Below are positions 35,898 to 58,672 of a stretch of 64,000 bases of DNA, one piece after another. Within the stretch, counting starts at the first letter, position 1. The number at the start of each line of letters is the position of its first letter. The position numbers were made by a program, and so were the translations under genes. Under the pieces are notes generated by a model that searched no databases, was not told the DNA's origin, and worked only from the letters and a program-made list of their open reading frames with translations. Source of the stretch: Cupriavidus sp. WKF15 (GTDB taxonomy: Bacteria > Pseudomonadota > Gammaproteobacteria > Burkholderiales > Burkholderiaceae); contig NZ_CP119574.1 of the NCBI RefSeq assembly GCF_029278605.1, forward strand, positions 1-64,000, read 5' to 3'.

Positions 35898-35938
35898 TTG
35901 ATCCAGCCCAAATCGCGGCCTCCGGGGGGAACTAGTCT
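35898..35938 (+). promoter_or_regulatory. FNR/CRP-like box plus -10, copy A (universal stress operon)
   Basis: TTGATCCAGCCCAA at 35898-35911 is followed by exactly 21 bases and TAGTCT (35933-35938). The same 14-mer plus ATC, at the same spacing to a -10-like TACCTT, occurs upstream of the gene at 42411 and the stress gene at 58184. A 14-base TTGAT-N4-NNCAA site placed 21-22 bases before the -10 matches class II FNR-activated promoters. The stress-protein start is 135 bases downstream. Confidence 0.65.
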
Positions 35939-36072
35939 GATAAGGAAGTCACTGCCGCAATGGCCACAGTGAGGTTTCCGCAAGCGGCCGTCGTGGTCAG
36001 CAAGGGCGAGGGCGGCAGGCTCCACTTGCATGCGGTAGTCATACCCGCTCTTAGCTCTAGCAAGGAGCAGAC

Positions 36073-36567
36073 ATGTACCAACGCATCCTGGTAGCCCTTG
36101 ACGGCGGCACAGCTTCCGAGGCCGCGCTGGACGATGCCATTCCACTTGCGCAGGCCATGGGTGCCGAGGTGGAGGTGATCTATGTGGTCGATGACAGCAG
36201 CCCGTTCCTTGACGTTACGGGGATGGACCCCGTCAGGCTGATCGATGACCTGGTTATGGTGGGGGAAAGCGTGCTCTCGGCCGCAGCGAACAAGCTCGGG
36301 CGGGCTGGCGTACGTCATTGCACGCGCTTGCTGAGCAAACACATGATCCGGGACGACATCGCAACGACCATCGTGGCGGAAGCTGCCGCATGGCCTGCAG
36401 ACCTGATCGTAATGGGCACGCACGGACGCCGTGGCGCACGCAGGCTAATCATGGGCAGCGTGTCCCGGGGCGTCATGGTCCGGACAACCCTGCCAGTGCT
36501 GCTGGTCTGTCAGGCCAGGGATGGCATCCACAGCCCGATTTCGTCTCACGGCAAGGAGTTAGCATGA
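36073..36567 (+). CDS. Universal stress protein (UspA family), ATP-binding type
   Basis: A 164-residue single-domain Usp. It starts MYQRILVALDGGTASEAALD and has the ATP-binding G-2X-G-9X-G(S) motif in GTHGRRGARRLIMGSVSRGV near residues 117-136. Such proteins bind ATP and support survival under energy or oxygen limitation. It follows FNR-like box A and overlaps the next gene by four bases (ATGA), so at least two Usp genes are cotranscribed. Confidence 0.92.
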   Translation: MYQRILVALDGGTASEAALDDAIPLAQAMGAEVEVIYVVDDSSPFLDVTGMDPVRLIDDLVMVGESVLSAAANKLGRAGVRHCTRLLSKHMIRDDIATTIVAEAAAWPADLIVMGTHGRRGARRLIMGSVSRGVMVRTTLPVLLVCQARDGIHSPISSHGKELA

Positions 36568-37400
36568 ACTACAGCAGCATCCTGGTTCATCTGGACCGCA
36601 ACAGGCACACGGCGAGCCGCCTTGCGCTCGCGTCGCAACTGGCGAACTCACATGACTGTCCGCTAATCGGCATCATGGGAGGCTTCGTTCCCGATCCGGC
36701 ATGGTTCTATCTGATGGACAATGCCGCGCTCTACATCGAAGCGGACCGGCAGCGCCGCCAGTTGGCAAAGGAAAGCATTCGTGACCAGTTCCACGAGGCG
36801 ACGAAACACCTGTCCGCCGGCGTGGAGTGGCGGTCGGCCGAGCATGATGTGCTGTCGATGGTGCTCCGGGAGTCGCGCGAGGCGGGCCTGATCATTGCTG
36901 GCCAGTACGATGCAAATGGCGAGGAGGGTCCAATCGCAACCCAGATACTCGAGGCCTTGCTGTTGGAAAGCGGCCGTCCGGTTCTTGTCGTCCCGTGTGA
37001 CGGGCGATTCCCTGCAACAGGTTCGCGTGTAATATTGGCATGGAATGGAAGCCGGGAAGCTACGCGAGCATTGCACGATGCGTTACCGATGATCGGCGGA
37101 GCGAAGGCACGCGTGGTATGCGCCCAGACTGCGGCCAAGGAGGCAAGGCCGGACGCGACGCCGGTTGCCCATGCCGTGCGTGTCCTCGAACGTCACGGTG
37201 TAGCGGTGGAAGTTGAACAAGGCCCCGGCGGTTCGGACCTGACCATTGGTGAACTGCTGCTGTCGCGAGCCGCCGACTTCGATGCGGACCTGATCGTCAT
37301 GGGCGCTTACGGCCACGGGCGGATGCGCGAGCTTGTACTGGGCGGCGTCACTCGCACCTTGCTGTCGTCGATGACGGTACCAGTATTGTTCTCGCATTGA
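36564..37400 (+). CDS. Tandem-domain universal stress protein
   Basis: A 278-residue protein with two Usp domains. The first (MNYSSILVHLDRNRHTASRL) has a degenerate nucleotide loop ending RPVLVVPCDG; the second (SRVILAWNGSREATRALHDA) ends with GAYGHGRMRELVLGGVTRT, an intact G-2X-G-9X-G motif. The ATG at 36564 overlaps the upstream stop and has GCAAGGAG before it. Longer in-frame extensions upstream overlap the first Usp gene and are not real. Likely part of the low-oxygen stress response. Confidence 0.92.
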   Translation: MNYSSILVHLDRNRHTASRLALASQLANSHDCPLIGIMGGFVPDPAWFYLMDNAALYIEADRQRRQLAKESIRDQFHEATKHLSAGVEWRSAEHDVLSMVLRESREAGLIIAGQYDANGEEGPIATQILEALLLESGRPVLVVPCDGRFPATGSRVILAWNGSREATRALHDALPMIGGAKARVVCAQTAAKEARPDATPVAHAVRVLERHGVAVEVEQGPGGSDLTIGELLLSRAADFDADLIVMGAYGHGRMRELVLGGVTRTLLSSMTVPVLFSH

Positions 37401-37428
37401 GTCCGGCATCGCTGCGCTGATGCCGGAC
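37401..37428. repeat. Perfect 10-base inverted repeat between stress genes
   Basis: GTCCGGCATC (37401-37410), loop GCTGCGCT, GATGCCGGAC (37419-37428) begins directly after the stop of the tandem Usp. There is no T-run, so it may be an mRNA 3'-stabilising or attenuating stem rather than a complete terminator. Confidence 0.55.
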
Positions 37429-37491
37429 CTTCGGCCGGCCGCAGTCTTGTGGCGGCACCTCACGGTTCGGGCATGCTGCGGGAGAAGCCAA

Positions 37492-37941
37492 ATGTATACG
37501 AGGATTTTAGTAGCGATCGACGGTAGTCACTGCGGCGGCCGTGGGCTGGATGAGGCCATAGGGCTTGCAGCGGCGAGTGGCACGGAACTGGACATTGTGC
37601 ACATTGTCGACGGTGGCTACGAGGAGCCAGAAGTACGTGCGAGCCTTGTACGGCAAGGGCACAGGCTTCTGGCAGAGGCACAGGCGCAGGCGCAGGCGGA
37701 GTCCAGACATGTGCGCAGCCAGGCAATCCGGATCGACGAGATCCTGACGCTTGGTGATACGGGCAAGCAGATTCAGCAGCTTGCGGAAGACCGCGGCGCC
37801 CAGATCATCGTGGCGGGTACGCACGGCCGCACAGGTATCGGGCGGGTATCGACGGGGAGCGTGGCGGAACGTTTGCTGCGCCATGGCAGCGTGCCCGCCT
37901 TGCTGATCAAGGCATCCCATCATGTCGGCGCGGCGCCCTGA
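37492..37941 (+). CDS. Universal stress protein (UspA family)
   Basis: A 149-residue Usp starting MYTRILVAIDGSHCGGRGLD, with the nucleotide motif GTHGRTGIGRVSTGSVAERL near residues 109-128. The start at 37492 gives the canonical N-terminus. It is separated from the tandem Usp by a stem-loop and about 90 bases, and is followed 43 bases later by a membrane-protein gene. Probably the same regulon. Confidence 0.92.
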   Translation: MYTRILVAIDGSHCGGRGLDEAIGLAAASGTELDIVHIVDGGYEEPEVRASLVRQGHRLLAEAQAQAQAESRHVRSQAIRIDEILTLGDTGKQIQQLAEDRGAQIIVAGTHGRTGIGRVSTGSVAERLLRHGSVPALLIKASHHVGAAP

Positions 37942-37984
37942 CTCCAGATCCCGCGGACATAGGACTCGGCATCCGAAGGCTAGT

Positions 37985-38773
37985 ATGGCGAATTCGTCCA
38001 TGGCGTCCGTGCAACCCCAAGGCGGGGAAGGGCGGGAGCCGGTGCTGGATGTGGTGGATCGTGTTTCCGAAATGTGCTTTGGTCTGTTTATGGCCCTGAC
38101 CTTTGTCGGCGCGGTCTCATCCGCGCGTGCCGGAGCAGATGCCAGCAGCGCAATGCTGCGTGCGGCACTGGGCTGCAACCTAGCCTGGGGGCTGGTTGAC
38201 GCAGTCATGTACCTCGTCCGCACGCTCGCAGGGAGAGGGCAGCGACTCACGCTTGCCATGGCCGTCAAGCATTCGGTAGATAGTCCAGCCGGCATCCGTC
38301 TCATTCGCGACACGCTCCCACGGGTCATGAAGACGCTGGTTCTCGATGCCGAACTGGAGGCCATTCGTGCCAGACTTGTCGCCGCAAGCCAGCCGGGGCG
38401 TCCCCGCCTGCATTGGGCCGATCTGCGTGGGGCGGTGCACATCTTCTGCATCGTTGTCCTGAGTACATTTCCAGTCGCACTGCCTTTCGTGCTGCTAAGC
38501 GACGTGCCGAAGGCCTTGCTTGTCTCGCGCGCATTGACGCTCGGCATGTTGTTTCTGGGAGGGATGGCGCTAGGACACTACTTAGGATTCGGGGCCACGG
38601 CGGCCGGACTCGGAATGACGGCTCTGGGGGGGGTCGCGCTGACCATGGCGATCATCGCGCTTGGGGCTGATGTGCGGCACGATTGCACGTATTCCCGCCG
38701 GATTCAGCAGAGAAACCATAGAGGCGTTTCTCAAATGGCCGGCAGCCGCTCACAGTACGAGTCGGGGGCGTGA
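37985..38773 (+). CDS. VIT1/CCC1-like integral membrane protein
   Basis: About 262 residues with four or five hydrophobic segments (CFGLFMALTFVGAVSSA, GCNLAWGLVDAVMYLVR, VHIFCIVVLSTFPVALPFVL, LTLGMLFLGGMALGHYLG, GMTALGGVALTMAIIALG). The first helix VSEMCFGLFMALTF and NLAWGLVDAVMYL resemble the iron/manganese VIT1 family, though conserved metal ligands are not obvious. The ATG at 37985 is taken. A basic 35-residue tail follows the last helix. The stop overlaps the next start (TGATG). A metal or stress role is inferred only. Confidence 0.65.
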   Translation: MANSSMASVQPQGGEGREPVLDVVDRVSEMCFGLFMALTFVGAVSSARAGADASSAMLRAALGCNLAWGLVDAVMYLVRTLAGRGQRLTLAMAVKHSVDSPAGIRLIRDTLPRVMKTLVLDAELEAIRARLVAASQPGRPRLHWADLRGAVHIFCIVVLSTFPVALPFVLLSDVPKALLVSRALTLGMLFLGGMALGHYLGFGATAAGLGMTALGGVALTMAIIALGADVRHDCTYSRRIQQRNHRGVSQMAGSRSQYESGA

Positions 38774-39129
38774 TGGGCCGATTGGGTGACTGTTATCGCG
38801 CGTATGTCATTTCCCGCCGAAGCGCGCAGGCAGCCGATCTCCTGTGGAGGTACTACGGTCTTAGGATCACCGACGAGATGCGTTACCGGTTGATGTGCCT
38901 CAGCGCTGGGGCCGGAGGGAAACTCGCGCCGCAAGCGCTAGCGATGCTTTACCTCACGGACATGCTGGATGAGTATGATGGCGATCCTCACGCCCCGATC
39001 ATCCACGCGAGCGTCGACTTTTTGCTGCGTCGCGCCACCGCCGCCAATACCCGGAACCTGCTGCGCGACTCCATCCGCTTTCAGCGCCTGCGGGAGATCG
39101 CAATGCGGAAATACGGCTGGGAGCCGTGA
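38773..39129 (+). CDS. Conserved hypothetical protein, coupled to the VIT1-like gene
   Basis: A 118-residue hydrophilic, largely helical protein (MGRLGDCYRAYVISRRSAQA, DLLWRYYGLRITDEMRYRLM, ending AMRKYGWEP). No domain is recognised. The ATG overlaps the previous TGA, which argues for a real, cotranscribed gene. Confidence 0.55.
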   Translation: MGRLGDCYRAYVISRRSAQAADLLWRYYGLRITDEMRYRLMCLSAGAGGKLAPQALAMLYLTDMLDEYDGDPHAPIIHASVDFLLRRATAANTRNLLRDSIRFQRLREIAMRKYGWEP

Positions 39130-39204
39130 TGTAGGCAATCATCTCCGGGCAAGGGACTGACGTTGGGAGAACATCGTATCCGCGATGCCCATTGGGAGCA
39201 AATC

Positions 39205-39676: not shown

Positions 39677-39948
39677 TGGCTGGCGCTATCGCGCTCTTCT
39701 TTACGATGTTTGGCGGCTCCCACATGGGCTTGCAGGGTTTCGGCGGTCGGGGCGGCTTCGGTGGTGGGTCTGGACGAAGCGGATTCGGTGGCGGCGGTAG
39801 TGGCTTTGGCGGCGGCGGCGCCTCGGGAAGTGGTGTTGGGGAATTTCCAGCGCATGGCGCGACATCTCCTGATGACGCACTGGCGAGTCATGCAGACCTT
39901 CCCGCGCGGATCCTTGCTCGCAGTCGAGCAGGCCATCGCGACCAGTGA
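39655..39948 (+). pseudogene. C-terminal tail of a TPM-domain (YgcG-like) membrane protein
   Basis: The segment AIAVGVMAGAIALFFTMFGG, followed by GGRGGFGGGSGRSGFGGGG and FGGGGASG, is the last membrane helix and glycine-rich tail typical of TPM_phosphatase-domain proteins. The catalytic-like TPM domain is missing. The normal stop after GGGGASGxW appears lost by a small indel, so the frame runs on to 39948 within the next gene. It is fused in sequence to the DUF4239 remnant. Confidence 0.7.
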
Positions 39949-42054: not shown

Positions 42055-42262
42055 GCCACACTGCGTCGGCATGCCGAACGTGAGGCGAAGCACATTGATG
42101 TATGAGCGCCCCCTGTCTCCAAAATGGCGGCGCTGGAGAGTCCAATGCGCCCGTGAGCAGCGTAGGCGGGATGCTCGTCGCAGCATTCTCACCTCAAGGA
42201 TGCAAGGACCGGCTTCCTGCAAGCCGGCGAATGCGGCACGTACAGACGAAATGTCGGTCTTT

Positions 42263-42303
42263 TTGATCCAGCCCAAATCCGGGAGCCGCCCGCCAACTAC
42301 CTT
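42263..42303 (+). promoter_or_regulatory. FNR/CRP-like box plus -10, copy B (nitroreductase/exporter unit)
   Basis: TTGATCCAGCCCAA at 42263-42276, 21 bases, then TACCTT at 42298-42303. This is identical in box and spacing to copies at 35898 and 58018. It lies about 110 bases upstream of the nitroreductase-like start. Confidence 0.65.
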
Positions 42304-42410
42304 AGCTGCATGGGTCTTGCCGCCCGGGGCTCCGAGAGGATGACAGGCTTACGCCTTGCGTCCCGCCGAATCGGCGCGCTGGCATGGCCCCGGCAGTTCT
42401 GGAGACGAAC

Positions 42411-43016
42411 GTGACCCATCCTATTGTTTCAGCCGAAGCCGCCGTGGAGTTCGTGGACCTTCCCACGCCCCGGACCGAAGGTGGCATGCCGCTCCTTACG
42501 GCGCTTCACAACAGGCGCTCCACCAGAAGCTTCGCGCAGCGCCCCCTGGACGACGTGCTGCTGTCCACGCTGTTGTGGGCGGCCTTTGGCATCAGCCGTC
42601 CCGATAGCGGCCTGCGGACGGCGCCTTCGACCCTCAACTGGCAGGAGATCGATCTCTATGTCGCCTTGCCGGAGGGGCTCTACGTGCTCGAGCCTGTGGG
42701 CTGGCGGCTTCGCCTGGTGACCGGCGAAGACCTGCGGGCAGCCACCGGCTTGCAGGACTACGTGTCGACCGCGCCGCTGAATCTGGTCTATGTCAGCAGG
42801 TTGTCAAAGCTCGATGACGCCGATAAGCCGCTGCGCCGGTTCTATACGGCCCTGGATGCCGGTTACATCAGCCAGAACGTCTACCTGTTCTGTGCCGCGT
42901 CGGGCCTGGCGACGGTCGCACGAGGCCTGCTGGACCGCCGCGCGCTCGCAAGGGCAATGCGGCTGGATCCCGATCAGCGCGTCATCCTGGCCCAAAGCGT
43001 GGGCTTTCCCCCGTAA
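42411..43016 (+). CDS. Nitroreductase/SagB-type flavin oxidoreductase
   Basis: About 201 residues from a GTG at 42411 (GGAG six bases upstream); an ATG at 42384 is an alternative. The segment LLTALHNRRSTRSFAQRPLD is the typical nitroreductase FMN-contact start, followed by LLWAAFGISRPDSGLRTAPS, FYTALDAGYISQNVYLFCAA and GLATVARG. These FMN enzymes reduce nitro, enone or related groups, or oxidise peptide azolines in SagB relatives. It is first gene behind FNR-like box B and heads the phosphoribosyltransferase and exporter genes. Confidence 0.82.
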   Translation: MTHPIVSAEAAVEFVDLPTPRTEGGMPLLTALHNRRSTRSFAQRPLDDVLLSTLLWAAFGISRPDSGLRTAPSTLNWQEIDLYVALPEGLYVLEPVGWRLRLVTGEDLRAATGLQDYVSTAPLNLVYVSRLSKLDDADKPLRRFYTALDAGYISQNVYLFCAASGLATVARGLLDRRALARAMRLDPDQRVILAQSVGFPP

Positions 43017-43046
43017 CAGCCGGACAGATAACGCAAGGAGGCTGAC

Positions 43047-43673
43047 ATGTCTTTCATCGACAGGCAGGATGCCGCCAGGCAACTGGCGCGCGCGCTAAGC
43101 CGACACGCCGGCCAGCACCCGCTGGTGCTGGCCGTGCCGCGTGGCGCGGTGCCGATGGGCGCAGTCATTGCCGACGCCCTCGGGGCCGACCTTGACATCG
43201 TGCTGGTACACAAGCTCGGCGCGCCGGGCAATCCCGAGTTTGCCATCGGGGCCGTGGACGAGAGCGGCTGGACCTATCTGACATCTCATGCGGCCATGGC
43301 CGGTGCAGACCATGCATACGTCGACCGGGAGCGTGCAGCGCAACTCGAGGAGCTACGCCGCCGCCGCGCCCGCTACACACCGGGCCGCGAGGCAGTCAGC
43401 GCGGCAGGACGGCGGGTCATCGTCGTGGACGACGGCCTGGCCACCGGTGCATCGATGATTGCGGCTTTGCATTCTGCCAGAATGCAGAAGCCACTTCACC
43501 TGGTATGCGCGGTACCGGTGGCGCCGCCGCAGACGCTGGAGCGCCTGCGGCCGTATGCCGATGAAGTGGTGTGCCTCGAATCGCCACCGTCTTTCCGCGC
43601 GGTTGGTGAGTTCTATCGTGAGTTTCCCCAGGTCGATGACGAGCAGGTCGTGGCCGCCCTGAACGGGCGCTGA
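43047..43673 (+). CDS. Phosphoribosyltransferase-domain protein
   Basis: A 208-residue protein with the PRPP-binding motif RVIVVDDGLATGASMIAAL near residues 122-140 and an N-terminal ALSRHAGQHPLVLAVPRGAV segment. It belongs to the type I PRTase-like proteins often annotated as putative phosphoribosyl transferases and commonly found beside stress genes. The nucleobase substrate is unknown. AAGGAGG precedes the ATG. It lies 30 bases after the nitroreductase and 9 bases before the permease, so it is in the same operon. Confidence 0.88.
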   Translation: MSFIDRQDAARQLARALSRHAGQHPLVLAVPRGAVPMGAVIADALGADLDIVLVHKLGAPGNPEFAIGAVDESGWTYLTSHAAMAGADHAYVDRERAAQLEELRRRRARYTPGREAVSAAGRRVIVVDDGLATGASMIAALHSARMQKPLHLVCAVPVAPPQTLERLRPYADEVVCLESPPSFRAVGEFYREFPQVDDEQVVAALNGR

Positions 43674-43682
43674 GTCCGGAAT

Positions 43683-44879
43683 ATGCCGAACGCCGCCGAC
43701 CCCGCTCCCGGCCCTTCCACGGCGCACCCACAGTGGGCAGCCATTCCGGGCATCTTGCTGCTGGCTTACAAGCTGCTGGTCAATGACCGGGCCAAATTTA
43801 CGGGGCTGCTGGTCGGCATTACCTTCTCCGTGTTCCTGATGATCGAGATGACGTCGCTCTTTGCGGGCGTCCTGAACCGTTCGTCGTCCACGGTATTCAA
43901 CATAGGCGCCAGCATCTGGGTCATGGATCCGGCCGTCAACACGGTGGCCAACACAATTGGCATGCCTGACTATGTACTGGACGCCGTGCGCAGCATCGAC
44001 GGCGTACGCTTTGCGGTGCCGCTCTACTCGGGCGGCGCACTGGTGCGCCTGAACAGCGGTGTCTATCAGCCTGTGACCGTGGTCGGGATCGACGACACGA
44101 GCCTGTTCGGCCGCCCACGGGTCGTGCGCGGCAGCATCGATGACCTTTTTGCCGAGAATGCCTTTCTGGTTGTCAAGGACGCGGAATACCGAAAGCTGGA
44201 AAACCCGGATGTGGGTACGACGTTCGAGATCAATGACCATCGAGGCGTGATCGTTGGGCTTGCAGAGGTATCGAGCAGCGGACTGTTTGGCGTGCCGACG
44301 CTCTATACGACATACCGGCGCGCGATTCAGTACCTGCCTACCAGCCGTTACACGATCTCGTACATCCTGGTCGAGCCGAAGACGCCCGCGGACACGCCTC
44401 GCATCCAGCAGGCGGTCGGACGGCTTGGCTACACCGCGCTCACCAAGGACCAGTTTGTCGACCGCATTTCCGATTTCTACAAGTACCAGACCGGGCTGGG
44501 CACGAATATCCTGCTGATGACCGTCATCAGCTTTATCGTCGGATTGTCGATTTCAGGGCAGACCTTCTATACCTTCATCGTCGAGAACCTCGAGAAGTTC
44601 GGTGCGCTCAAGGCCATCGGCGCCAAAGGGCATGAGTTGGTGGCGATGATCCTGTTCCAGGCAACATTCGTGTCGCTGACCGGATATGGCCTTGGCATCG
44701 GGCTGTGCACCGTACTGATTGCCCTGGCGCGGCTGCGCATCCCCAATTATGCGGCGCTGATCACGTTCTACAACCTTGCCATGGCGCTGGCGATGGTCAT
44801 GGTGATCGCGGGCATATCGGGCTACATCGGCGTACGCAAGGTGCTACGTATCGAACCGTTCGACATCTTCCGGGCATGA
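43683..44879 (+). CDS. ABC exporter permease, FtsX/DevC type
   Basis: A 398-residue permease. One N-terminal helix (FTGLLVGITFSVFLMIEMTS) is followed by a large periplasmic domain (about residues 55-270). Three C-terminal helices follow (NILLMTVISFIVGLSISGQT, ELVAMILFQATFVSLTGYGL, NLAMALAMVMVIAGISGYIG). This matches FtsX/MacB/DevC export permeases. The stop overlaps the ATP-binding gene start (ATGA). Together with the next three genes it forms a tripartite exporter. Confidence 0.9.
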   Translation: MPNAADPAPGPSTAHPQWAAIPGILLLAYKLLVNDRAKFTGLLVGITFSVFLMIEMTSLFAGVLNRSSSTVFNIGASIWVMDPAVNTVANTIGMPDYVLDAVRSIDGVRFAVPLYSGGALVRLNSGVYQPVTVVGIDDTSLFGRPRVVRGSIDDLFAENAFLVVKDAEYRKLENPDVGTTFEINDHRGVIVGLAEVSSSGLFGVPTLYTTYRRAIQYLPTSRYTISYILVEPKTPADTPRIQQAVGRLGYTALTKDQFVDRISDFYKYQTGLGTNILLMTVISFIVGLSISGQTFYTFIVENLEKFGALKAIGAKGHELVAMILFQATFVSLTGYGLGIGLCTVLIALARLRIPNYAALITFYNLAMALAMVMVIAGISGYIGVRKVLRIEPFDIFRA

Positions 44880-45580
44880 CCATGGCACACGTCGCGATCT
44901 CGGCACAAGGTATCGAGAAGTGGTTCGGCGAAGGCGAGGCCAGAACCCACGCGCTACGTGACGTCAGCTTCGACGCCTACTTCGGCGAGATCCTGTTCGT
45001 TGTTGGTCCATCAGGCAGCGGCAAGACGACCTTGCTCAGCGTGATCTCCGGCATCCTGAGACCGGATGGGGGGCGCGTGATGATCGATGGCGTCGATGTA
45101 TGGCGCCTCACTGACGACGAGCTGGCCGCATTCCGGCTGGCCAAGGTGGGCTTCGTGTTTCAGGACTATCACCTGTTTCCCCGCCTCACGACTCTGGAGA
45201 ATGTCGCCATTCCTCTGGTCCTGCGCCGGCGTGACTGGGATGAAGCGCTGGCCGAAGCCCGCAAATACTTGCGGATTGTCGGCTTGGAAAATCGGGCACA
45301 GCTGCCTCCGGTCAAGCTCAGCGGTGGCGAGCAGCAGCGCGTCGCGATCGCGCGGGCTATTGTCAGCCAGCCCGATATCCTCATCCTTGACGAGCCCACC
45401 GCGTCGCTGGATGGCGAGACCGGCCGCACCATCATGACGTTCATTCGCAAGGAAATCCTCAATGACAGGCGTTGCATTGTCGTCGTGACGCACGATGCGC
45501 GGATTTTCGATATGGCATCTCGCATACTCGACATGGAGGACGGGCGACTCAAGGCCATTGAAGCAGGAACTGCACAATGA
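44876..45580 (+). CDS. ABC exporter ATP-binding protein (DevA/LolD/MacB type)
   Basis: A 234-residue ATPase. Walker A GPSGSGKTT (about residues 41-49), Q-loop VFQDYHLFP, signature [15 protein letters not shown], Walker B ILILDEPTAS, and H-loop VVVTHDARIF are all intact. The start at 44876 overlaps the permease stop; an internal ATG at 44882 is possible. It powers the DevC-type permease. Confidence 0.93.
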   Translation: MTMAHVAISAQGIEKWFGEGEARTHALRDVSFDAYFGEILFVVGPSGSGKTTLLSVISGILRPDGGRVMIDGVDVWRLTDDELAAFRLAKVGFVFQDYHLFPRLTTLENVAIPLVLRRRDWDEALAEARKYLRIVGLENRAQLPPVKLSGGEQQRVAIARAIVSQPDILILDEPTASLDGETGRTIMTFIRKEILNDRRCIVVVTHDARIFDMASRILDMEDGRLKAIEAGTAQ

Positions 45581-46668
45581 AGAAGAACCGCTGGCTCTTC
45601 CTGGTGTCCGCACTTGGCGCCCTGGTCGGCGTCGCGGCCGCGGTCTTTTACGCGCAGCAGAAGCCGCCCCTTCCGCCCGTATTCCAGCCGGCGGCCAATC
45701 CATATCGAAGTGGCATCTACGCCAACGGCATCGTGGAAAGCGAACAGGACAGCGGGGCCAACGTCAATGTTTACCCGGAGGTGACCGGCACCGTGGCCAG
45801 GATCGCCGTCCGGGAAGGTCAGGCCGTCAAGCGCGGCGACGAACTGCTGACCATCGAAGACTCGGTCCAACGCGCGCTCGCGCAGCAGCAGTCCGCGCAG
45901 GCGGATGCCGCTGATGCCCAGCTCGCGCAATTGCTGGCCCAGCCGCGCAAGGAAACCTTGGAGGTGGCGCAGGCACAGGTCGACGCCGCAGCCGCGAGCC
46001 TCAAGACGGTGGAGGACCAGTACGACAAACTGCACAAGTCGTGGCAGATTGATGCCAGGTCCGTCAGCCAGGACGCCATGGATAACGCCGCCAACGCTGT
46101 GGGGGTCGCACGCAGTTCCCTGGTGGTGGCACGTAGGCAACTGGCGCTGACGCGCGCCGGTGCATGGACGTACGACATTCGCAACCAGGAAAAGCAGCGC
46201 GATGCGTTGCGCAAGGCAGCCGATGCGGCCGATGCCCTGCTGCGGAAATACGTGGTGCGCGCCCCGATGGACGGGGTGGTGCTGTCGGTCAATACCGCCG
46301 TGGGGGCCTATGTATCGCCGCAAGGGACATATGACACCTATACGCAGGGCAATCAGCCCGTTGCCGTCCTGAGCAGCCAGCAGGACTGGCTGGCGGTCCG
46401 TGTCTACGTCGACGAGATTCTTGTGCACCGGCTGCAACTCAGCCGTGGCATGCAGGCGCGCATGTTCGTGCGCGGCACTGACACCAGCATCACGCTGGAA
46501 TTTGTCCGACTACAGCCATACCTGACCCCGAAGATCCAGCTCTCGGACCAGAGAACGGAGCGCGTTGATGTCCGCGTGCTGCCGGTGATCTTTCGCTTCA
46601 GGAGACCTTCGCAGCCAGCGATTTACCCGGGGCAACTGGTGGATGTGTATCTGGGCGGGGCACCGTGA
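45577..46668 (+). CDS. HlyD/DevB-family membrane fusion protein
   Basis: A 363-residue periplasmic adaptor. The N-terminal anchor helix is WLFLVSALGALVGVAAAVFY, then a biotinyl-lipoyl-like half (VNVYPEVTGTVARIAVREGQ), a coiled coil (residues about 85-205, QSAQADAADAQLAQLLAQPR), the second lipoyl half (VVRAPMDGVVLSVNTAVGAY) and a beta-barrel domain. It overlaps both neighbours by four bases. It links the inner-membrane ABC exporter with the NodT-type outer-membrane protein. Confidence 0.92.
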   Translation: MKKNRWLFLVSALGALVGVAAAVFYAQQKPPLPPVFQPAANPYRSGIYANGIVESEQDSGANVNVYPEVTGTVARIAVREGQAVKRGDELLTIEDSVQRALAQQQSAQADAADAQLAQLLAQPRKETLEVAQAQVDAAAASLKTVEDQYDKLHKSWQIDARSVSQDAMDNAANAVGVARSSLVVARRQLALTRAGAWTYDIRNQEKQRDALRKAADAADALLRKYVVRAPMDGVVLSVNTAVGAYVSPQGTYDTYTQGNQPVAVLSSQQDWLAVRVYVDEILVHRLQLSRGMQARMFVRGTDTSITLEFVRLQPYLTPKIQLSDQRTERVDVRVLPVIFRFRRPSQPAIYPGQLVDVYLGGAP

Positions 46669-48125
46669 GCTGGCAGCTCCACTACCGCAAGCCGCTTGCG
46701 GCGATGCTGGCGACCGCGCTTTGGGGTTGTGCGGTCGGGCCCGATTTCGTGTCACCGCCGGCGCCGGCGGTGACCGACTATGTGCGAAGCGGGGACGCCG
46801 CCGACACGCCGGCGGGCGAGGGACAGATCCAGCACTTTGCGTCCGGTGCGCCCGTGCCGGCGCACTGGTGGCACATGTTTGGCAGCGATGAGCTGGATCG
46901 CGCCCTGGAAGTGGCGTTGGCCGGGAATCCGAGCCTGCAGGTCGCCGAAGCCAACCTGCGGCAGGCCGACGCGGCCGCCCGTGCCGGCGCAGGCGTGTTC
47001 TATCCGCAGGTCGCGGTGCAGGCACAGGCGTCACGGCAGACCACGACGCCCGCGAGGCTCGGGAGCGTAGTCGCTCCCGGCATTTTCAATGTCTTCACGC
47101 TGGGGGCCACGGTCAGCTACGCGCTGGAGTTGTTCGGCGGCAACCGCAGGGCGGTGGAGGCCCTGTCGGCACGGGCGGAGGCGCAACGCTACGCGGTCGG
47201 CGCGGCCTGGCTCACGTTGACCGGGACGCTCGTCAACACCGCAATTGCTCGGGCCGGCTATGCGACGCAGATTGCCGCCACGGAGGCGTTGGTGAAGGTG
47301 GTGCGCGAGCAAGTGGAAGTCACGCGCGCGCAAGTCAGCGCCGGTACGGCAACCCACGCCAGCGAACTGAGCCTGCTGAGCCAGCTCGGTTCACTGGAGG
47401 CGACACTACCCCCGCTCGAACAGCGGCTGGACCAGGCCGATCATCTCGAGGCGACGCTGGGTGGACGCTTCCCTTCGGAGTCGGAGCCACTGGCCCTGTC
47501 CCTCGAATCGCTCGCATTGCCGACGGACCTGCCACGCGTGTTGCCCTCCGAACTGGTACGGCGCAGGCCGGATGTGCTTGCCGCGCAGGCTGAACTGCAT
47601 GTCGCGGCGGCGAACGTCGGCGTAGCCACTGCTGCCATGCTCCCGAGCATTGCGTTGAGCGCCACCTACGGGCGCGAGGGAACGCAGCCCGGAGCCCTGT
47701 TCGCCGCGGGCGGCGGCATCTGGGGCATGGCCGCCGCCGCCTTTGCGCCAGTATTCCAGGGCGGCACTCTGTACTACGGACGGCGCGCCGCTCTGGCGCA
47801 ATTCGAGGCGGCGCAGGCCAACTACCGGCAGGTTGTGCTGGCGGCCTTTGCCCAGGTGGCCGATGCGCTGCGGGCCCTGGAGCATGACGCGCTCACAGTG
47901 GATGCGCAGGATCGCGCGCGGCAGGCCGCGCTCCAGCTCATGTCCGAAGTCCAGGCCAATTACAGGGCCGGCACGACGGGATATCTTCAGGTTCTCGTTG
48001 CCAATGCCCAGTACCAGCAGGCAAGCATCGGCTACATACAGGCGCGCGCGCAGCGGCTGCAGGACACAGTGGCACTGTTCCTTGCGCTTGGCGGCGCCTG
48101 GCAAGACCAGCCCCCGCTCCCTTGA
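46665..48125 (+). CDS. NodT-family outer-membrane efflux lipoprotein
   Basis: A 486-residue RND/ABC-type outer-membrane factor with a GTG start overlapping the previous stop. A lipobox LWGC (Cys22) precedes VGPDFVSPPAPAV, the classic start of mature NodT lipoproteins. The two OEP repeats include ALEVALAGNPSLQVAEANLR and LVRRRPDVLAAQAELHVAAA. It completes the permease-ATPase-adaptor-outer-membrane set, making a full export path across both membranes. Confidence 0.93.
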   Translation: MSWQLHYRKPLAAMLATALWGCAVGPDFVSPPAPAVTDYVRSGDAADTPAGEGQIQHFASGAPVPAHWWHMFGSDELDRALEVALAGNPSLQVAEANLRQADAAARAGAGVFYPQVAVQAQASRQTTTPARLGSVVAPGIFNVFTLGATVSYALELFGGNRRAVEALSARAEAQRYAVGAAWLTLTGTLVNTAIARAGYATQIAATEALVKVVREQVEVTRAQVSAGTATHASELSLLSQLGSLEATLPPLEQRLDQADHLEATLGGRFPSESEPLALSLESLALPTDLPRVLPSELVRRRPDVLAAQAELHVAAANVGVATAAMLPSIALSATYGREGTQPGALFAAGGGIWGMAAAAFAPVFQGGTLYYGRRAALAQFEAAQANYRQVVLAAFAQVADALRALEHDALTVDAQDRARQAALQLMSEVQANYRAGTTGYLQVLVANAQYQQASIGYIQARAQRLQDTVALFLALGGAWQDQPPLP

Positions 48126-48290
48126 CGCATATCAACGGGCTGTCGGGACTTACCGCATACGCTGGGTCAAGGCGAGCTGTGTGAAGAAGCGTGAGGGCGA
48201 GCATGAATTGCCACGCGCGGCTTACCCGGACATGCGCCGGCTGGCGAAAAGCTCTGCGCTCTGCTGCACATCGACGAAATGAGGACGCAA

Positions 48291-48944
48291 ATGAAAGGCG
48301 ATATCCAACTGAAGCAGGACGTAACCGAAGAACTGACCTGGGACCCGTCAGTCAATGCGAGCGAGATCGGAGTGCAAGTGGTTGACGGCGTGGTGACTCT
48401 TACCGGGCATCTGCAGAATTTTGCCGAGAAGTATGCGGCCGAAGCCGCGGTGAAGCGGATTCCCGGCGTCAAGGCGTTGGCTGTCGAACTGGATGTGCGC
48501 CTGCCGGACGACTCACAGCGCACCGACAGCGATATTGCGCGGGCTGCCTCCAATGTCCTGTCCTGGCAAACTATGGTGCCGAGTGGCCGCATCAAGATCA
48601 TGGTCGAGCATGGCGTGATTACGCTGACCGGGGACGTCGACTGGAACTACCAGCGCGTGGCCGCGGAGCACGCTGTTGCCGGACTCTTCGGGGTGGCTAG
48701 CGTCACGAATGCAATTGCCGTGCGCCCGCTGGTCAACCAGGCCGACCTGAGCCAGCGGATCAAAGATGCCATCGAGCGGCAGGCGGTGCTGGATGCCAGC
48801 CACGTAACGGTGGCCGTATCGGAAGGGAACGTCAAGCTGGGTGGCAGCCTGCGGACCTGGTCCGAGCGGGAAGCGGCATACAACGCTGCGTGGTCGGCGC
48901 CCGGTGTGATTTCGGTCGAAAACAACATCAGCGTCAATCTTTGA
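48291..48944 (+). CDS. BON-domain protein with three repeats
   Basis: A 217-residue protein made of three BON modules (about residues 3-70, 75-143 and 148-215). Each has the pattern I/V.V.V.(D/E)G.V.L.G..(N/D).....AA...(P/A)GV..V.N.(I/L). Examples are IGVQVVDGVVTLTGHLQNFA, IKIMVEHGVITLTGDVDWNY and VTVAVSEGNVKLGGSLRTWS. BON domains bind membranes or phospholipids and respond to osmotic or other stress. There is no signal peptide, so it may be cytoplasmic. GAGG stands before the ATG at 48291; 48279 is an alternative. It probably belongs to the exporter operon. Confidence 0.88.
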   Translation: MKGDIQLKQDVTEELTWDPSVNASEIGVQVVDGVVTLTGHLQNFAEKYAAEAAVKRIPGVKALAVELDVRLPDDSQRTDSDIARAASNVLSWQTMVPSGRIKIMVEHGVITLTGDVDWNYQRVAAEHAVAGLFGVASVTNAIAVRPLVNQADLSQRIKDAIERQAVLDASHVTVAVSEGNVKLGGSLRTWSEREAAYNAAWSAPGVISVENNISVNL

Positions 48945-49613: not shown

Positions 49614-51779
49614 CTACTTCAATCCGAGCAGTTCATATACTTCCAACGGCTTCTGCCGACCTTTCACCTGAATGACGGTCACCGGACGCACGATGACCTG
49701 ATTCTGCACGCGGGCGTAGACGGCGGCACTGATCAGGATTTGGTCGATCCCGGCATGTTCCTGGATGCGCTTGGCGATGTTCACATCGTCGCCGATCGCA
49801 GTGTATTCCATGCGCTGCTCGCCACCGACCAGCCCCAGCACTGCCTCGCCGACGTGCAGGCCGATCCCGACGGAGAGGTGAAACAACGGGGAGATCTGTT
49901 GGTACAGGGCCTGGATGGCCACGCGGATACCGAGTGCAGCGCGAAGTGCGCGCATTACGTGGTCGGGCTGGGGGAAAGGGGCATTGAACCAAGCCATCAC
50001 CGCATCGCCCAGGAACTTGTCGATCGTCCCTTCCTGCGCCAGTACGGCGTCCGTCATCACGCCGAGATAGCGGTTGAGCAAGCCGAACAGATCGTCCGGA
50101 TTCAGTTGCTCGCTGATGCTGGTGAAGCCGTGGATATCGGCGAACAGGGTGGTGATCTCGGTGCGCTTGCCCGCCGGCTGCAAATGCTCGGTATCGATCT
50201 GCGCCAAGATCGCCGGCGATACCATGCATTTCAGCAATTGCTGCTGGGCTTCCATCAGCCGCTTTTCCGTCACGTCGTCCAGCACGATCGCGATGCCCTG
50301 TGGCTGCTGCAAGCCTTTGAGCGTGGAGAGGTTGAAGCGCAGATAGACAGTACCGCGCCCGGTGACGGTGGGAGCGAGTTCAAGGCCGACTACCGCCTTG
50401 TCGGTGCGAGCGGTGCTCAGTACGTGCGACAGCAGGGTCGTCCCCAACGGAGGCTGGAGTTCAACGATATTGCGTCCGACCAGTTCTTCGGCATCCCGAT
50501 ACCCCAGGATGTGCAAGGCGGCCAGGTTACACAGCATGATTTTGCCTTGCAGATCAGTGGTGATCACTCCGCTTACGATGGAGGCGAACACATTGTCGAG
50601 CAGATCCTTCAATTCGGTGGTCTCGGTCAACGCGTGGCGCAATTGAGCCTGGTGTTCCTGCAGCCGCTCGGCCATCCGGTCGAAGGAGCAGGCCAACTGG
50701 CTCAATTCCCCGTGCCCCGGCAACAGCCCGGCGCGCGCTTGAAGATCGCCTTTCTCCAGCCGTTCGGTGGCCGCGAGCAGGGCGCGTGCCGGACGCAGGA
50801 TAAATACTGCGCCAAACCACCAGGCCGTGGCCAGAGCGAGCAAGGCGACTGCGCTGAAGAACAGCAGGCGGTAGGCGAAGGCGCGGTTGACCTGTGCGAA
50901 CGCCACCGAGGTGGGGATGCCGACCGCAAGGTACCCCTGCGTGGTGATGACCACCCCGCGTGTGCTGCGCAGCGGCGCGAACGCGAACAGGCTGGTGACG
51001 CCTTCCAGGTTGGGGAGCTCAACCGTGCCTTCCTCCTGGTGGGAGAGAATGGTTTCGACCAGCGCGTTACCCTTTGCGGCAACCCCCATCCAGCGTCGCC
51101 AATCCGGATGCTCGAAGAGCACGGTGCCGTGGCGGTCGAGCAAAATGAGCACGGCATCGGGCGGCAGACGCGCCTCAACAGCCAACTGATCGAGCCACCT
51201 CAGATCGAGTGCGGCGAATACCACCCCTTTGGGGGAGCCGGTCTCATCGAGGATCGGATAGCCGAAGTTCACACTAGCTTTGCGGCTAGTACGGCTGATC
51301 TGGTAATCCCCGATCGCCAGGCCTTTGTACTGCAGCGCACGCTGGAAATAGCCGCGGTCGGCGACATTCACCGGTTCGGCCAGGCGCAGTCCGCTGCAGT
51401 ACACATTGCCTTCCAGGTCCGCAGCGGCCAGATTGGCATAGAAGGGGTACTGCTTAAGGAAATTACCAAACAGAGTACTGCAGGCCGCCTCGGAGCGATC
51501 GTGCACCACCGGAATTTGGGCCAGCGCGATTAGCAATTGTCGTGACCCCTCGATGAGTCGCTCGTGCTGGCTGATCGTCAGGCGGAGGAGGCGTATGGTA
51601 CCGTCCTGGACGCGCTGCTCCGCAGCACGCCGCTCCTCAAGGTTCGTGGTAAGAATCAGCAGGAGCATCGGCAGAATGGCAAGCAGCACCAACAGCAGCA
51701 TCCGCACCCGCAGGCTACCGGTTTTACCGCTAACGGCAGCCCATCGGCGGAAGAGCCTTTTGAGGCGAGGGGCAGACAT
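49614..51779 (-). CDS. Membrane adenylate/guanylate-cyclase-type receptor (Cache-HAMP-PAS-CYCc)
   Basis: About 721 residues from MSAPRLKRLF. A first transmembrane helix (VRMLLLVLLAILPMLLLILT) leads to a large periplasmic Cache-like sensor (residues about 50-290). A second helix (LLFFSAVALLALATAWWFGA), a HAMP segment (RPARALLAATERLEKGDLQA) and a PAS domain (LLDNVFASIVSGVITTDLQG) follow. Last is a class III cyclase domain (ITTLFADIHGFTSISEQL; FLGDAVMAWFNAP) with both metal aspartates. It likely makes cAMP in response to an external small ligand. The ATG at 51779 is chosen over one 33 codons upstream. Confidence 0.88.
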   Translation of the reverse strand: MSAPRLKRLFRRWAAVSGKTGSLRVRMLLLVLLAILPMLLLILTTNLEERRAAEQRVQDGTIRLLRLTISQHERLIEGSRQLLIALAQIPVVHDRSEAACSTLFGNFLKQYPFYANLAAADLEGNVYCSGLRLAEPVNVADRGYFQRALQYKGLAIGDYQISRTSRKASVNFGYPILDETGSPKGVVFAALDLRWLDQLAVEARLPPDAVLILLDRHGTVLFEHPDWRRWMGVAAKGNALVETILSHQEEGTVELPNLEGVTSLFAFAPLRSTRGVVITTQGYLAVGIPTSVAFAQVNRAFAYRLLFFSAVALLALATAWWFGAVFILRPARALLAATERLEKGDLQARAGLLPGHGELSQLACSFDRMAERLQEHQAQLRHALTETTELKDLLDNVFASIVSGVITTDLQGKIMLCNLAALHILGYRDAEELVGRNIVELQPPLGTTLLSHVLSTARTDKAVVGLELAPTVTGRGTVYLRFNLSTLKGLQQPQGIAIVLDDVTEKRLMEAQQQLLKCMVSPAILAQIDTEHLQPAGKRTEITTLFADIHGFTSISEQLNPDDLFGLLNRYLGVMTDAVLAQEGTIDKFLGDAVMAWFNAPFPQPDHVMRALRAALGIRVAIQALYQQISPLFHLSVGIGLHVGEAVLGLVGGEQRMEYTAIGDDVNIAKRIQEHAGIDQILISAAVYARVQNQVIVRPVTVIQVKGRQKPLEVYELLGLK

Positions 51780-52140
51780 GCGGTCATTCCCTCCGCAGTA
51801 CTCGCCCGAGAGCGCTGAATGACGCGCCTTGGCCTTCCAGGGCCTGACCCCGTAGGATCGGCTGGGTGGCGCTGACATTCGGCATTCCTCGCTCCGCTCA
51901 TAGGAAGGTGTCTGTGATGTCTATCTTAGAGCGTTGCCCCGGCGCGTCGAAGTTTGCCGTCAGCCAGGCATCGGGAGGGCACTGTCAACTTGGCGCAATG
52001 GAAACTGGCCAGTGGCCGACATGCCCACTGCTCAGAAAGGAGACCGCGCGAAATCGGGGCAACGACGACGTTCGCCGCAGGGAGACTAATGAGCCACCTG
52101 CAATGCGCGCATGGCTTCCGATCCTGGGTCCGCGACTTCC
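51780..52140. other. Intergenic region, no gene recognised
   Basis: Upstream region of the cyclase gene and the start of a mosaic of gene fragments. No ribosome-binding-site-supported frame is seen. Confidence 0.4.
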
Positions 52141-54565: not shown

Positions 54566-54806
54566 GGTGGGGATTCCTTTTTCGGGTACAAAAGCTCCCG
54601 CCCGCAGCAGTGCAGGTGCGGAAAGTGCGATGCGCATTTTGGTGACGCGACGTAAAGCTCTAGCGATACTGCAAAGCGGATTTCTCTCGGTCTGTATCGA
54701 CCCCGATTTTGTTATCGCCGCGCTAGCCTCGGTTGGCGTCGTTGTTGCACGTAAACCATCTTGCTGATGTAGGGTTGCTCAGCGGACTGATGACCGCTGG
54801 AAGGCA

Positions 54807-55640
54807 TCACTTCCGCTCGATCACCACTTCGAGGTACTCGCTCGGCAGCACCAGCGTGCCGTCGTCCGAGCGGTTGTCGCGCGCCATGAGCGCAAGCAAG
54901 TCCCGGGTGAAGGCAGCCTGCTTCTCGGCATCAAGCGCGTCGAAGGTCTTGGTCACGGGGCCGTAGTAGGTGCGGAACACTTCGATCCAGTGCGCGGGCG
55001 AGCGGTAGCGGAAGGCGAACTCGCGGGTGGTTGTGCAGATCTGCCGTGCGGTTTTTCCGAAGAGCTCCTCAAGCCTTCCCTTCGTGCCCCAAAGTCCCGG
55101 CGATTTGACGCCTGGCGCCGGGGGAATGTATTTGCCGATCGTCTTGAACACTTGTCCAATGAAACTCTCGGGCGTCCAGTTCGCCAGGCCGATCCTGCCG
55201 CCGGGCTTGCAAACACGCGCGAGCTCGCTCGCCGCCTTGTTCTGGTTCGGGGTGAACATCACACCGAAGGTGGACATCACCGCGTCGAACGCTGCGTCTG
55301 GAAACGGTAGGTTCTCAGCGTCGGCTTCCTGGAACTGGATCGTGTGGCCTTCGGCCTGCGCGCGCGCCCGCCCGGACTCGAGCAGCGAGGACACATAGTC
55401 GGTGGAGGTCACATCGCACCAGCGGCGCGCGGCCGCAAGCGTGGCGTTGCCGTTGCCGGCGGCGACGTCGAGCACGCACGCACCGGAACGCAGATCGAGT
55501 GCTTCGCACAGGTTCTCTCCGACGATCTGAAGCGTGGTGCCTACCACGGCATAGTTGCCCGTGGGCCAGGCGGCTTGCTGACGGGTCTTGACTGAGGCGA
55601 GGTCGATGGCGGGCGAGGACGTTGTGGCGAGGGCGGGCAT
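54807..55640 (-). CDS. Class I SAM-dependent methyltransferase (UbiE-like)
   Basis: A 277-residue methyltransferase. Motif I is VLDVAAGNGNATLAAAR, motif II/post-I is VTSTDYVSSLLESGRARA, and EADAENLPFPDAAFDAVMST is motif IV. KPGGRIGLANWTPESFIGQV is motif VI. It methylates a small molecule; the acceptor is unknown. It is divergent from the AraC/cupin regulator and upstream of the diiron protein, so the three may form one metabolite-modifying unit. Confidence 0.88.
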   Translation of the reverse strand: MPALATTSSPAIDLASVKTRQQAAWPTGNYAVVGTTLQIVGENLCEALDLRSGACVLDVAAGNGNATLAAARRWCDVTSTDYVSSLLESGRARAQAEGHTIQFQEADAENLPFPDAAFDAVMSTFGVMFTPNQNKAASELARVCKPGGRIGLANWTPESFIGQVFKTIGKYIPPAPGVKSPGLWGTKGRLEELFGKTARQICTTTREFAFRYRSPAHWIEVFRTYYGPVTKTFDALDAEKQAAFTRDLLALMARDNRSDDGTLVLPSEYLEVVIERK

Positions 55641-55900
55641 AGCGACACTCCTAATGGCATTCAGGGGGATTTGTTTCGGTGCAGAAACGCATTAGTCGGA
55701 CGGCGTCTCGGCTGGCCGGTGCGTGCCTCGCGACAACCTGCGAAGTGCCTTCCACATTCGACTCCTTCGCCCGGATATTGCCGGTTTGCGGTCCTCTGGC
55801 ACGGCGCCAGTGGTGCTAGTATTGGCGCAGCAGGAACGACATTGAATAACCGGGCGTCCAACTTTCTTGCGCGCGACGCCGCGATTGCACAATCGCCACG

Positions 55901-56932
55901 ATGGATGCCCTCTCCGACGTACTGCGCGTCGTCCAGTTGACCGGCGCCGTCTATCTCGACGGTTCATTTTCGGCGCCATGGTGCGTCATTGGTCACGCAG
56001 ATTCAGCACTTTGCTCGGCCTATCTGCCGGCCTCCGAGCGCGTCGTCTCGTTCCATCTGGTAACAGAAGGAGGGTGCTGGGCGATGTTGCCAAACGATCC
56101 CGGTAGCGCATTGCAGGTGGAATCAGGTGATGTCATCGTGGTGCCGCAAGGCGAAACCCACGTGCTCTGTAGTTCCACTGACCTGTCACCTGAACTCTTG
56201 GCGCCGTTATTGGCGAATCAAGTGGACACAATGCAGGGTGAAGTCATGAGGCTCGTCCACGGCGGCGGCGGGGCGGCCACTCGAATGGTCTGCGGTTTTC
56301 TCGCGGCGCAGAACATTTCGAGAAATCCCTTGCTTTGCGCGCTGCCGCGTCTGTTCAAGGTCGGCATGCGCGGGTCCAGGGCGTCATGGCTTGAATCGTC
56401 GCTGCGCTTCGCGACCGAGGAAGCAGCCTCAGCGCATGCCGGTAGTGCAACGGTGCTGGCCAAACTTGCGGAGCTGGTGTTCGTCGAGGCGGTGCGGCGT
56501 TACGTCGACACGATGCCCGACGATCGCAAGGGGTGGCTAGCGGGATTGCGCGATCGCCTCGTCGCTCGCGTGCTTGCGCTGATGCATGCGCGCCCGGCGC
56601 ACCCGTGGACCGTGGAAGACCTCGCCCACGAAGTTGGCATGTCGCGTTCCGCGCTTGCGCAGCGTTTCGCCGACCTGCTCGGGGTGCCGCCGATGCAATA
56701 CCTGGCGCAGTGGCGCTTGCAACTCGCCGCGCAGCAACTGCGCCTCACCGATCGGCCGCTCGTGTCAGTTGCGGAGGATGTTGGTTACGAATCCGAAGCC
56801 GCATTCAATCGCGCGTTCAAGCGCGAGTTCGGTGTGCCGCCGGCGACTTGGCGCAGGAACGCCGCGGGCACTGCGACTCGCGATCAGGGTGATGCGAGCC
56901 ACGCCGTGTCGAGCGGCACTGCATCTGACTGA
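55901..56932 (+). CDS. AraC-family regulator with N-terminal cupin domain
   Basis: A 343-residue regulator. The N-terminal cupin_6-type domain (MDALSDVLRVVQLTGAVYLD; VESGDVIVVPQGETHVLCS) is followed by an AraC helix-turn-helix pair (LAHEVGMSRSALAQRFADLL and SVAEDVGYESEAAFNRAFKR). It has the same architecture as the regulator at 1504-2421 but is only distantly similar in the sensor part. It faces away from the methyltransferase gene, which it probably controls. Confidence 0.88.
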   Translation: MDALSDVLRVVQLTGAVYLDGSFSAPWCVIGHADSALCSAYLPASERVVSFHLVTEGGCWAMLPNDPGSALQVESGDVIVVPQGETHVLCSSTDLSPELLAPLLANQVDTMQGEVMRLVHGGGGAATRMVCGFLAAQNISRNPLLCALPRLFKVGMRGSRASWLESSLRFATEEAASAHAGSATVLAKLAELVFVEAVRRYVDTMPDDRKGWLAGLRDRLVARVLALMHARPAHPWTVEDLAHEVGMSRSALAQRFADLLGVPPMQYLAQWRLQLAAQQLRLTDRPLVSVAEDVGYESEAAFNRAFKREFGVPPATWRRNAAGTATRDQGDASHAVSSGTASD

Positions 56933-58017
56933 CGCGCCCGCGACAGCGGCACGCATGGCACTCCGGATAGTGTCGCGTCCTGGCTTCACCGCCTCGGCTG
57001 CCCGCGCCGGGTGCCCATTCGGGCGCGCCCGGCGACTGCAGTTCCGCGGAACATGGCCACAGTGGCGGTGGCGTATGTTGGCCATCACTCCATAGAACCG
57101 TCATTCGGTGGCAATCCGAGGCGGGATGCGAGGGCCGGAAAGGCCGATGAAGCGACTTGTGCCAGCGAAAGTCCGTTAGCCTGGCCGGCGCCGACGTTCG
57201 AACGACCGAGTGATCGCGCGGATCTACGACGCTTCATGGCCGGTCACGGCCGGCTATCCCCTCCAGGTCGAGGCCGTCTCTGCCCGACCCGGAGCCGCCG
57301 TTCGGGATTGGGCCATAGCAACGGCGGATTCCGGGCGTACTGCTGCCATTCGCAAGTTGAGTTAATCGTTGAGTAATCGGCTATCTCAGTCCCACCTATA
57401 GAAGGGCCATACCTTCTGACCGTCGACTTATTAATAGCTCCCGGCAGGAGATCCCATCGAGGATCCAGACCATGCGTTCCTGGCGAACTGTAACCGGCAC
57501 GGGGTAGTCGTCGATGAAACTAGAGCCGTCGAGGGAACTGAAATGCTTTTGCATAATGGCTTTTTCTTCATCACGATTGGAATTACGTCCTAACGGCTGG
57601 CTTCCTCGGACTGGTGGCCTTGAGCTAGCATGCGCGCCACCTTATGACCGCCGCGTAGCCACGGCCAAATCCATCTCACTGACGGACACAGAGAAAGCCT
57701 GCCCCCCTGCCCGGCGATGGATTTGCTCGGCTTGCTGACATTTGTATCGCGCGTCGGCGGAGCCGTGGTCATATCCTGTTGCGACCTCCTCGAGGTATCC
57801 AGGAGGAAATTGTTGCTCTGGCGTGACCTGGGGAACTCCTCGCGCCATGGCGGTCTCGGCCAGATCCCTTACCCTACGCTATGGCGCCAACCCGATGATG
57901 GTGGCTGGATCTCCGGTGTGCGCCACCGAACGGCCGGGAGCGCGGCTCAGTCGGACAATAGTGATCTCTTCATAACGGTCCGGCCGTATAGCGCGACTTC
58001 TCGCGCTTACAGCTTCT
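56933..58017. other. Gene-poor region before the second stress operon
   Basis: About 1.1 kb with no supported gene. It contains the third copy of the dispersed palindromic motif (57232-57251). A minus-strand frame of 68 codons at 57642-57848 (VTPEQQFPPGYLEEVATGYD) looks more protein-like than its surroundings but has no ribosome binding site or recognised family. An AT-rich patch at 57415-57440 (TTATTAATAG) could be promoter-like. Confidence 0.4.
57232..57251. repeat. Dispersed intergenic motif CTTCATGGCCG-N4-CGGCC, copy 3
   Basis: Same 20-base motif as at 3469 and 14461; the variable centre here is GTCA. Confidence 0.5.
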
Positions 58018-58058
58018 TTGATCCAGCCCAAATCCGTGAATGGTTCATCACCTACCTT
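58018..58058 (+). promoter_or_regulatory. FNR/CRP-like box plus -10, copy C (second stress/exporter unit)
   Basis: TTGATCCAGCCCAA at 58018-58031, then 21 bases and TACCTT at 58053-58058. The same box and spacing occur at 35898 and 42263. It lies 125 bases before the universal stress gene. Copies B and C also share ACTACCTTA-like sequence around the -10. Confidence 0.65.
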
Positions 58059-58621: not shown

Positions 58622-58672
58622 TGACTGGGAATGCCATACGGAATGACCCCCGGTAATGAGGTCAGCTCTGCT

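Follow-up and report, generated by a model that had tools for sequence, protein, structure and literature searches.

A predicted FNR-type regulon in a Cupriavidus genome and a conserved, asymmetric subclass of its class II promoter box

Introduction

FNR/ANR-type activators bind class II promoters at a site with the consensus TTGATNNNNATCAA, which is centred near -41.5, and the oxygen dependence of FNR binding and activation is well established. Sites of the NnrR/DNR-type regulators of the CRP family contain TTGCG halves. The low-oxygen-activated (lxa) locus of Burkholderia cenocepacia comprises clustered genes for universal stress proteins (Usp), nitroreductase-like proteins and other stress proteins near FNR-type regulators. 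Here, we analyse a 64,000-nucleotide stretch of Cupriavidus sp. WKF15 (NZ_CP119574.1; the whole stretch is referred to as the window), in which a 14-base box, TTGATCCAGCCCAA, precedes three units of stress and exporter genes. The window covers the first 64 kb of a replicon of 0.90 Mb, and the genome totals 7.38 Mb with two other replicons of 3.75 and 2.73 Mb. The sequence comparisons below indicate that an FNR-type regulon of class II promoters is probably real and known in kind, and that it contains a conserved asymmetric subclass of the box.

The three promoters resemble FNR/ANR class II promoters in the TTGAT distal half, the CAA end, the 14-base length of the site, the 21 bases (N21) between the site and the -10 box, the absence of a -35 element and the presence of iron-sulphur (Fe-S) FNR homologues in the genome. 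Two discrepancies are observed. The proximal half reads CCCAA or GCCAA, and conservation extends to the NCAG centre, which the FNR consensus leaves free. The TTGAT and CAA arms, the spacing and an FNR protein with four Fe-S cysteines and the recognition helix agree with the class; the symmetric consensus TTGATNNNNATCAA is absent from the window sites, and halves of the TCAA type are found only at orthologous promoters in other genomes. Because its proximal half is CCCAA, the element is assigned as a variant box, not as a consensus box. As in lxa, genes for Usp, nitroreductase-like and other stress proteins are clustered close to FNR-type regulators, and the candidate sites cluster with them. 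Unlike lxa, the candidate sites are distributed over three replicons of a Cupriavidus-like genome, and co-induction at low oxygen is a prediction. The TTG-N8-CAA frame is shared with NnrR/DNR sites, and TTGC-type halves are seen by eye opposite ATCAA in this genus; we know of no named consensus of the NnrR/DNR families with a TTGGG or TTGGC half as found here. To our knowledge, the asymmetric subclass has not been described. An earlier note, which was made from the letters of the window, likened the downstream genes to low-oxygen loci of Burkholderia; the 14 plasmid records nearest to the window are mostly from Cupriavidus (nine), with four from Paraburkholderia, one from Caballeronia and none from Burkholderia.

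Results

The box and its spacing to the -10 element

The window contains exactly three copies of the 17-mer TTGATCCAGCCCAAATC, which includes the box. All are on the + strand (35898, 42263 and 58018), and the mean count of the 17-mer in 100 dinucleotide shuffles of the window is 0.00. The box itself is an exact match at 35898..35911 (unit 1), 42263..42276 (unit 2) and 58018..58031 (unit 3), with the TTGAT half distal to the gene. Exactly 21 bases separate it from a -10 box at all three sites, namely TAGTCT at 35933..35938, TACCTT at 42298..42303 and TACCTT at 58053..58058. Both the count of three and the 21-base spacing given in the earlier note were thereby reproduced. Its figure of 80-140 bases between the string and a gene 3´ of it agrees with the distances measured from the -10 box to the probable start codons, which are 135 bases for unit 1 (36073), 81 or 108 for unit 2 (42384 or 42411) and 126 for unit 3 (58184), and not with those measured from the string itself, which are 105-159 bases. 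No TTGACA-like -35 element was seen by eye at the three sites; the hexamers at the 17-bp position (AAATCG, AAATCC and AAATCC) each match TTGACA at one of six bases. The window has four matches to the pattern TTGAYNNNNNNCAA-N21-TANNNT, compared with 0 in 100 shuffles. Three of these are the asymmetric sites, and the fourth is an ordinary FNR-like box, TTGACGCCTGTCAA, at 35248..35261 (+), located 21 bases from TAGATT.

Judged from the sequence, the shared string is likely to serve as a class II activator site of the FNR type. As oxygen falls, a dimer of an Fe-S FNR homologue would bind the box, one subunit contacting the good distal half TTGAT and the other the weak proximal half CCCAA. The bound protein would overlap the region of the missing -35 element and recruit RNA polymerase carrying sigma70 to the -10 box, which lies 21 bases 3´, and the Usp, nitroreductase and ATP-binding cassette (ABC) exporter units would be switched on along with the other FNR promoters of the genome. 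The NCAG centre may, on weak statistics, offset the poor proximal half and set a lower affinity.

Sites in the genome, genus and family

The genome-wide scan proposed in the earlier note found eight copies of TTGATCCAGCCCAA, compared with none in the reversed control, and seven of the eight are followed by N21-TANNNT. The eighth copy (C3:621695) lies inside a duplicate of unit 1, where GAGTCT replaces the TAGTCT of unit 1. The genes 3´ of the five copies outside the window, identified from their translations and not from profiles, encode a small secreted protein, a Usp, a phosphoenolpyruvate synthase-like protein, a second Usp and a nitroreductase. The last two lie in the diverged duplicates of units 1 and 2.

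With the broader pattern TTGATNNNNNNCAA and 19-23 bases to TANNNT, 28 matches were found in the genome compared with 3 in the reversed control. Across 40 genomes of the genus, TTGATNNNNNNCAA-N21-TANNNT gave 240 matches compared with 5 in the reversed control, which supports the proposal of an FNR-type activator that binds at the spacing of class II promoters. A local scan, which covered the window and 215 kb of additional fetched sequence, allowed at most one mismatch and N20-22 and had no shuffled control; it listed 46 rows, 40 of them with N21. Candidate sites are present on all three replicons, in support of the idea that the separate units belong to one candidate regulon.

The mirror pattern TTGNNNNNNATCAA-N21-TANNNT has 191 matches compared with 8 in the reversed control (totals added from the table), and mirror-form TTGCGNNNNATCAA sites at N21 are common across the genus. 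The distal half of the mirror form is mainly TTGC- by eye, with at least three rows starting with TTGG among the matches listed. Since degenerate halves are also frequent on the distal side, the confinement of the CCAA form to the proximal side is suggestive and no more.

Exchange of the proximal half at orthologous promoters

Orthologous promoters were fetched by the downstream gene to avoid a choice based on the motif, although the CxxC-protein gene and the chaperonin gene were themselves chosen from motif matches. The first of these genes (L167:5053-5556) encodes a CxxC-containing protein with no Pfam match that is found in 51 of 249 family genomes; its promoters are FNR-like at N21. Of 30 CxxC-protein loci, 27 carry an FNR-like N21 site with no more than one mismatch, and the other 3 carry one only if two mismatches are allowed. 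The proximal half is of the CCAA type at 21 of the 30 loci (12 CCCAA and 9 GCCAA), of the TCAA type at 8 and CTTAA at 1, which is the promoter in the window's own genome. The eight TCAA-type loci are those of lowest identity (46% or less).

Among 11 loci of the ABC/Usp unit, 5 have the exact box, 1 has CTCAA and 4 have CTGAYGTGWATCAA at N21, with one mismatch. For the phosphoribosyltransferase unit, 12 of 30 loci were examined (63% identity or more); the box is exact at 1, replaced by TTGATCCATCCCAA at N22 at 5 (one with an imperfect -10 box) and by TTGATCCACGCCAA at N21 at 1. The 21 chaperonin loci include 4 exact boxes from one genus, 3 TTGCGKTGCATCAA sites at N21 from the window's genus, 1 weak site and 10 TCAA-type candidates, 2 of which have a full TANNNT. 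A mirror-form site lies 5´ of a Cpn60-type chaperonin gene in the window's own genome (C1:2175788), and the Ralstonia orthologue has TTGATCCAGCCCAA at this place. A second, divergent Cpn60-type chaperonin (L161:3341-4984; PF00118) is located behind FNR-like sites in several genera.

The CCCAA/GCCAA half thus gives way to TCAA-type halves at the orthologous promoters of more distant relatives. Since the exchange with ordinary FNR halves occurs at the same place, the simplest reading is that a single type of regulator would read both forms.

Conservation and over-representation of the asymmetric form

Mean pairwise identity was calculated for 19 CxxC promoters, which are 22 of the 30 loci minus near-identical ones; the 8 most distant, TCAA-type loci were left out. 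It reaches 0.98 in TTGAT, 0.77 in the six inner bases and 0.96 in CAA, compared with 0.42 in the spacer and 0.32 upstream. Conservation within this set extends to the inner NCAG and to the C before CAA, both of which the earlier note had overlooked. Omission of the TCAA-type loci favours the C before CAA; this choice of loci did not select for the inner C-A-G.

Over-representation was assessed on 169 typed sites out of the 240. The 14-mer is the commonest of them, with 13 rows, 7 of which come from the window's own genome. It occurs in 7, 7 or 9 groups with unrelated flanks at three grouping thresholds, compared with an expectation of 0.007-0.015 groups if the columns are independent and of 0.022 in a first-order model. 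When each group is represented once, the 14-mer is counted 3 times in one analysis and 5 to 9 times in a later one. A CAG centre is associated with a base other than T before CAA (p 0.008, 0.0007 and 0.00005 at the three thresholds), and the exact motif itself drives this association; in earlier tests, A at position 8 had p 0.14 and AG had p 0.12. By its conservation and these counts, the lopsided form is no random draw from FNR boxes. We take TTGATNCAGSCCAA to be an asymmetric subclass of the FNR box that is conserved in the Cupriavidus-Ralstonia lineage.

FNR-like proteins of the genome

The genome encodes six FNR-like proteins (C1:2184117, C2:2686298, C3:427400, C1:1345119, C2:2195632 and C2:1440935), all of which contain the FNR-type cysteines CxxC-x5-C and an E-T-[VA]-S-R helix. 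The first three are close paralogues, with 78-81% identity to protein L038, and lie within or adjoining clusters of sites, one per replicon; the other three are located elsewhere. L038 matches solved FNR chains with an E-value of ~2e-52 and all four cysteines, and L039 contains E-T-A-S-R in place of E-T-V-S-R. The variant regulator that the earlier note had offered to explain CCCAA is not needed, as the half exchanges with TCAA-type halves and the six cysteine-bearing FNR proteins retain E-T-[VA]-S-R.

Of the genus genomes, 32 have an island-type FNR, and 13 of these contain the exact motif; among the 28 that lack one, a single genome contains it (Fisher p 0.0007). The island-type call rests on an E-value cut-off of 1e-70 chosen after the table was seen. 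Because target genes travel with the islands, this co-occurrence singles out no regulator.

Discussion

Most of the 55 stretches found in a scan of 84,980 genomes come from unrelated taxa, and about 30 chance matches are expected by our own arithmetic, so that many of the matches outside Burkholderiaceae are probably due to chance. A chance repeat with no regulatory meaning is nevertheless scarcely credible as an account of the box and is rejected. The shuffles and the reversed genome control contain no copy, 15 of the 55 stretches are records of Cupriavidus (10), Ralstonia (3) or Burkholderiaceae (2), and a search of 299 family genomes with TTGATNCAGSCCAA-N21-TANNNT gave 35 matches, spread over 24 genomes and 4 of 25 genera, compared with none when reversed; the spacing and the conservation at orthologues also contradict it. 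We likewise reject, as very unlikely, the possibility that all copies arose by recent duplication of a single promoter, in which case the sharing of the box would be uninformative on function. Parts of two units are indeed duplicated at 621-630 kb of the same replicon: the unit 1 region 35696-37427 has a diverged copy at C3:621501-623234 (88.8%), and the unit 2 region 42108-44131 has one at C3:627800-629806 (84.9%). The genome copies of the box are therefore not all independent, and the eight reduce to about six independent flanks. However, the 14-mer and N21 stay constant among the three window sites, whose flanks differ, and records of Ralstonia and of other Cupriavidus have the same 14-mer 5´ of unrelated genes.

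The remaining alternative is that TTGATNCAGSCCAA is read as a site of its own by a distinct CRP/FNR-family regulator, by a heterodimer of FNR paralogues, or by FNR and a second protein that occupies the proximal half, and that it defines a separate sub-regulon. The rank of the 14-mer among the 169 FNR sites (7 to 9 groups compared with 0.007-0.022 expected) and the conservation of the inner bases where the spacer varies are in keeping with such a dedicated reader, and a CRP/FNR-family protein with E-T-L-S-R and without N-terminal cysteines (L045) is present. Conversely, at the same orthologous position and the same N21 or N22 the site shifts to the TCAA type, as one type of regulator allows, and no FNR subclade tied to the motif was seen by eye. 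We regard this alternative as unlikely. If TTGATNCAGSCCAA were nonetheless a distinct directional element, the low-oxygen response of Cupriavidus and Ralstonia would split into two sub-regulons.

Several observations weigh against an FNR-type activator site. The proximal half is two positions off the consensus TTGATNNNNATCAA, and known FNR specificity does not account for the over-representation and inner conservation. No acceptable site was found at 5 of the 12 phosphoribosyltransferase loci examined, 1 of the 11 ABC loci and 3 of the 21 chaperonin loci. L038 scores 219.5 bits, under the cut-off of 228 for the NCBIfam Fnr subfamily, and one genome (G018) carries the exact motif and no island-type FNR. 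The oxygen response, the binding and the 5´ ends of the transcripts are themselves predicted from sequence.

The analysis provides a computed set of FNR-type promoters, with their spacing, for a genome having six FNR-like proteins. It also defines a pair of site types, with a TCAA-type or a CCAA-type half, at the same orthologous promoter. These make it possible to test how a degenerate half is tolerated, or put to use, and whether targets are shared out among the FNR paralogues.

Genes of the three units and neighbouring features

All genes of the three units are located on the + strand. Unit 1 comprises a Usp (36073..36567; PF00582, E 2.8e-28), a second Usp-type protein with a putative start (36573..37400; PF00582, E 8e-13) and a third Usp (37420..37941; PF00582, E 9.9e-27). 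Unit 2 begins with a nitroreductase-family protein (42384..43016, start at 42384 or 42411; PF00881, E 2.8e-19) and a phosphoribosyltransferase-domain protein (43047..43673; PF00156, E 8e-16), which are followed by a MacB/FtsX-type ABC permease (43683..44879; PF12704 and PF02687), an ABC ATPase (44705..45580 as the open reading frame is listed, with the true start probably more 3´; PF00005), a HlyD-type membrane fusion protein (45577..46668; PF13437) and an outer membrane efflux protein (46665..48125; PF02321). Unit 3 is composed of a Usp (58184..58621; PF00582, E 7.4e-24), an ABC ATPase (58631..59389; PF00005), an FtsX-type permease (59383..61749; PF02687) and a HlyD-type protein (61754..62941; PF13437). 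The Usp frame of unit 3 is listed from 58163, and its ATG at 58184 follows AAGGAGA.

The Pfam matches bear out the downstream genes named in the earlier note, among them the BON-domain gene (48279..48944, +; PF04972, E 3e-44), which has an FNR-like box of its own. This box, TTGACGCATATCAA at 48122..48135 (+), lies 22 bases from TACGCT. The BON gene need not belong to unit 2 and may have a predicted promoter of its own.

Between units 2 and 3, the - strand encodes an adenylate/guanylate cyclase with dCache, HAMP and PAS domains (49614-51878), and the DNA of this region is 94.5% identical to a plasmid region of Cupriavidus necator H16.

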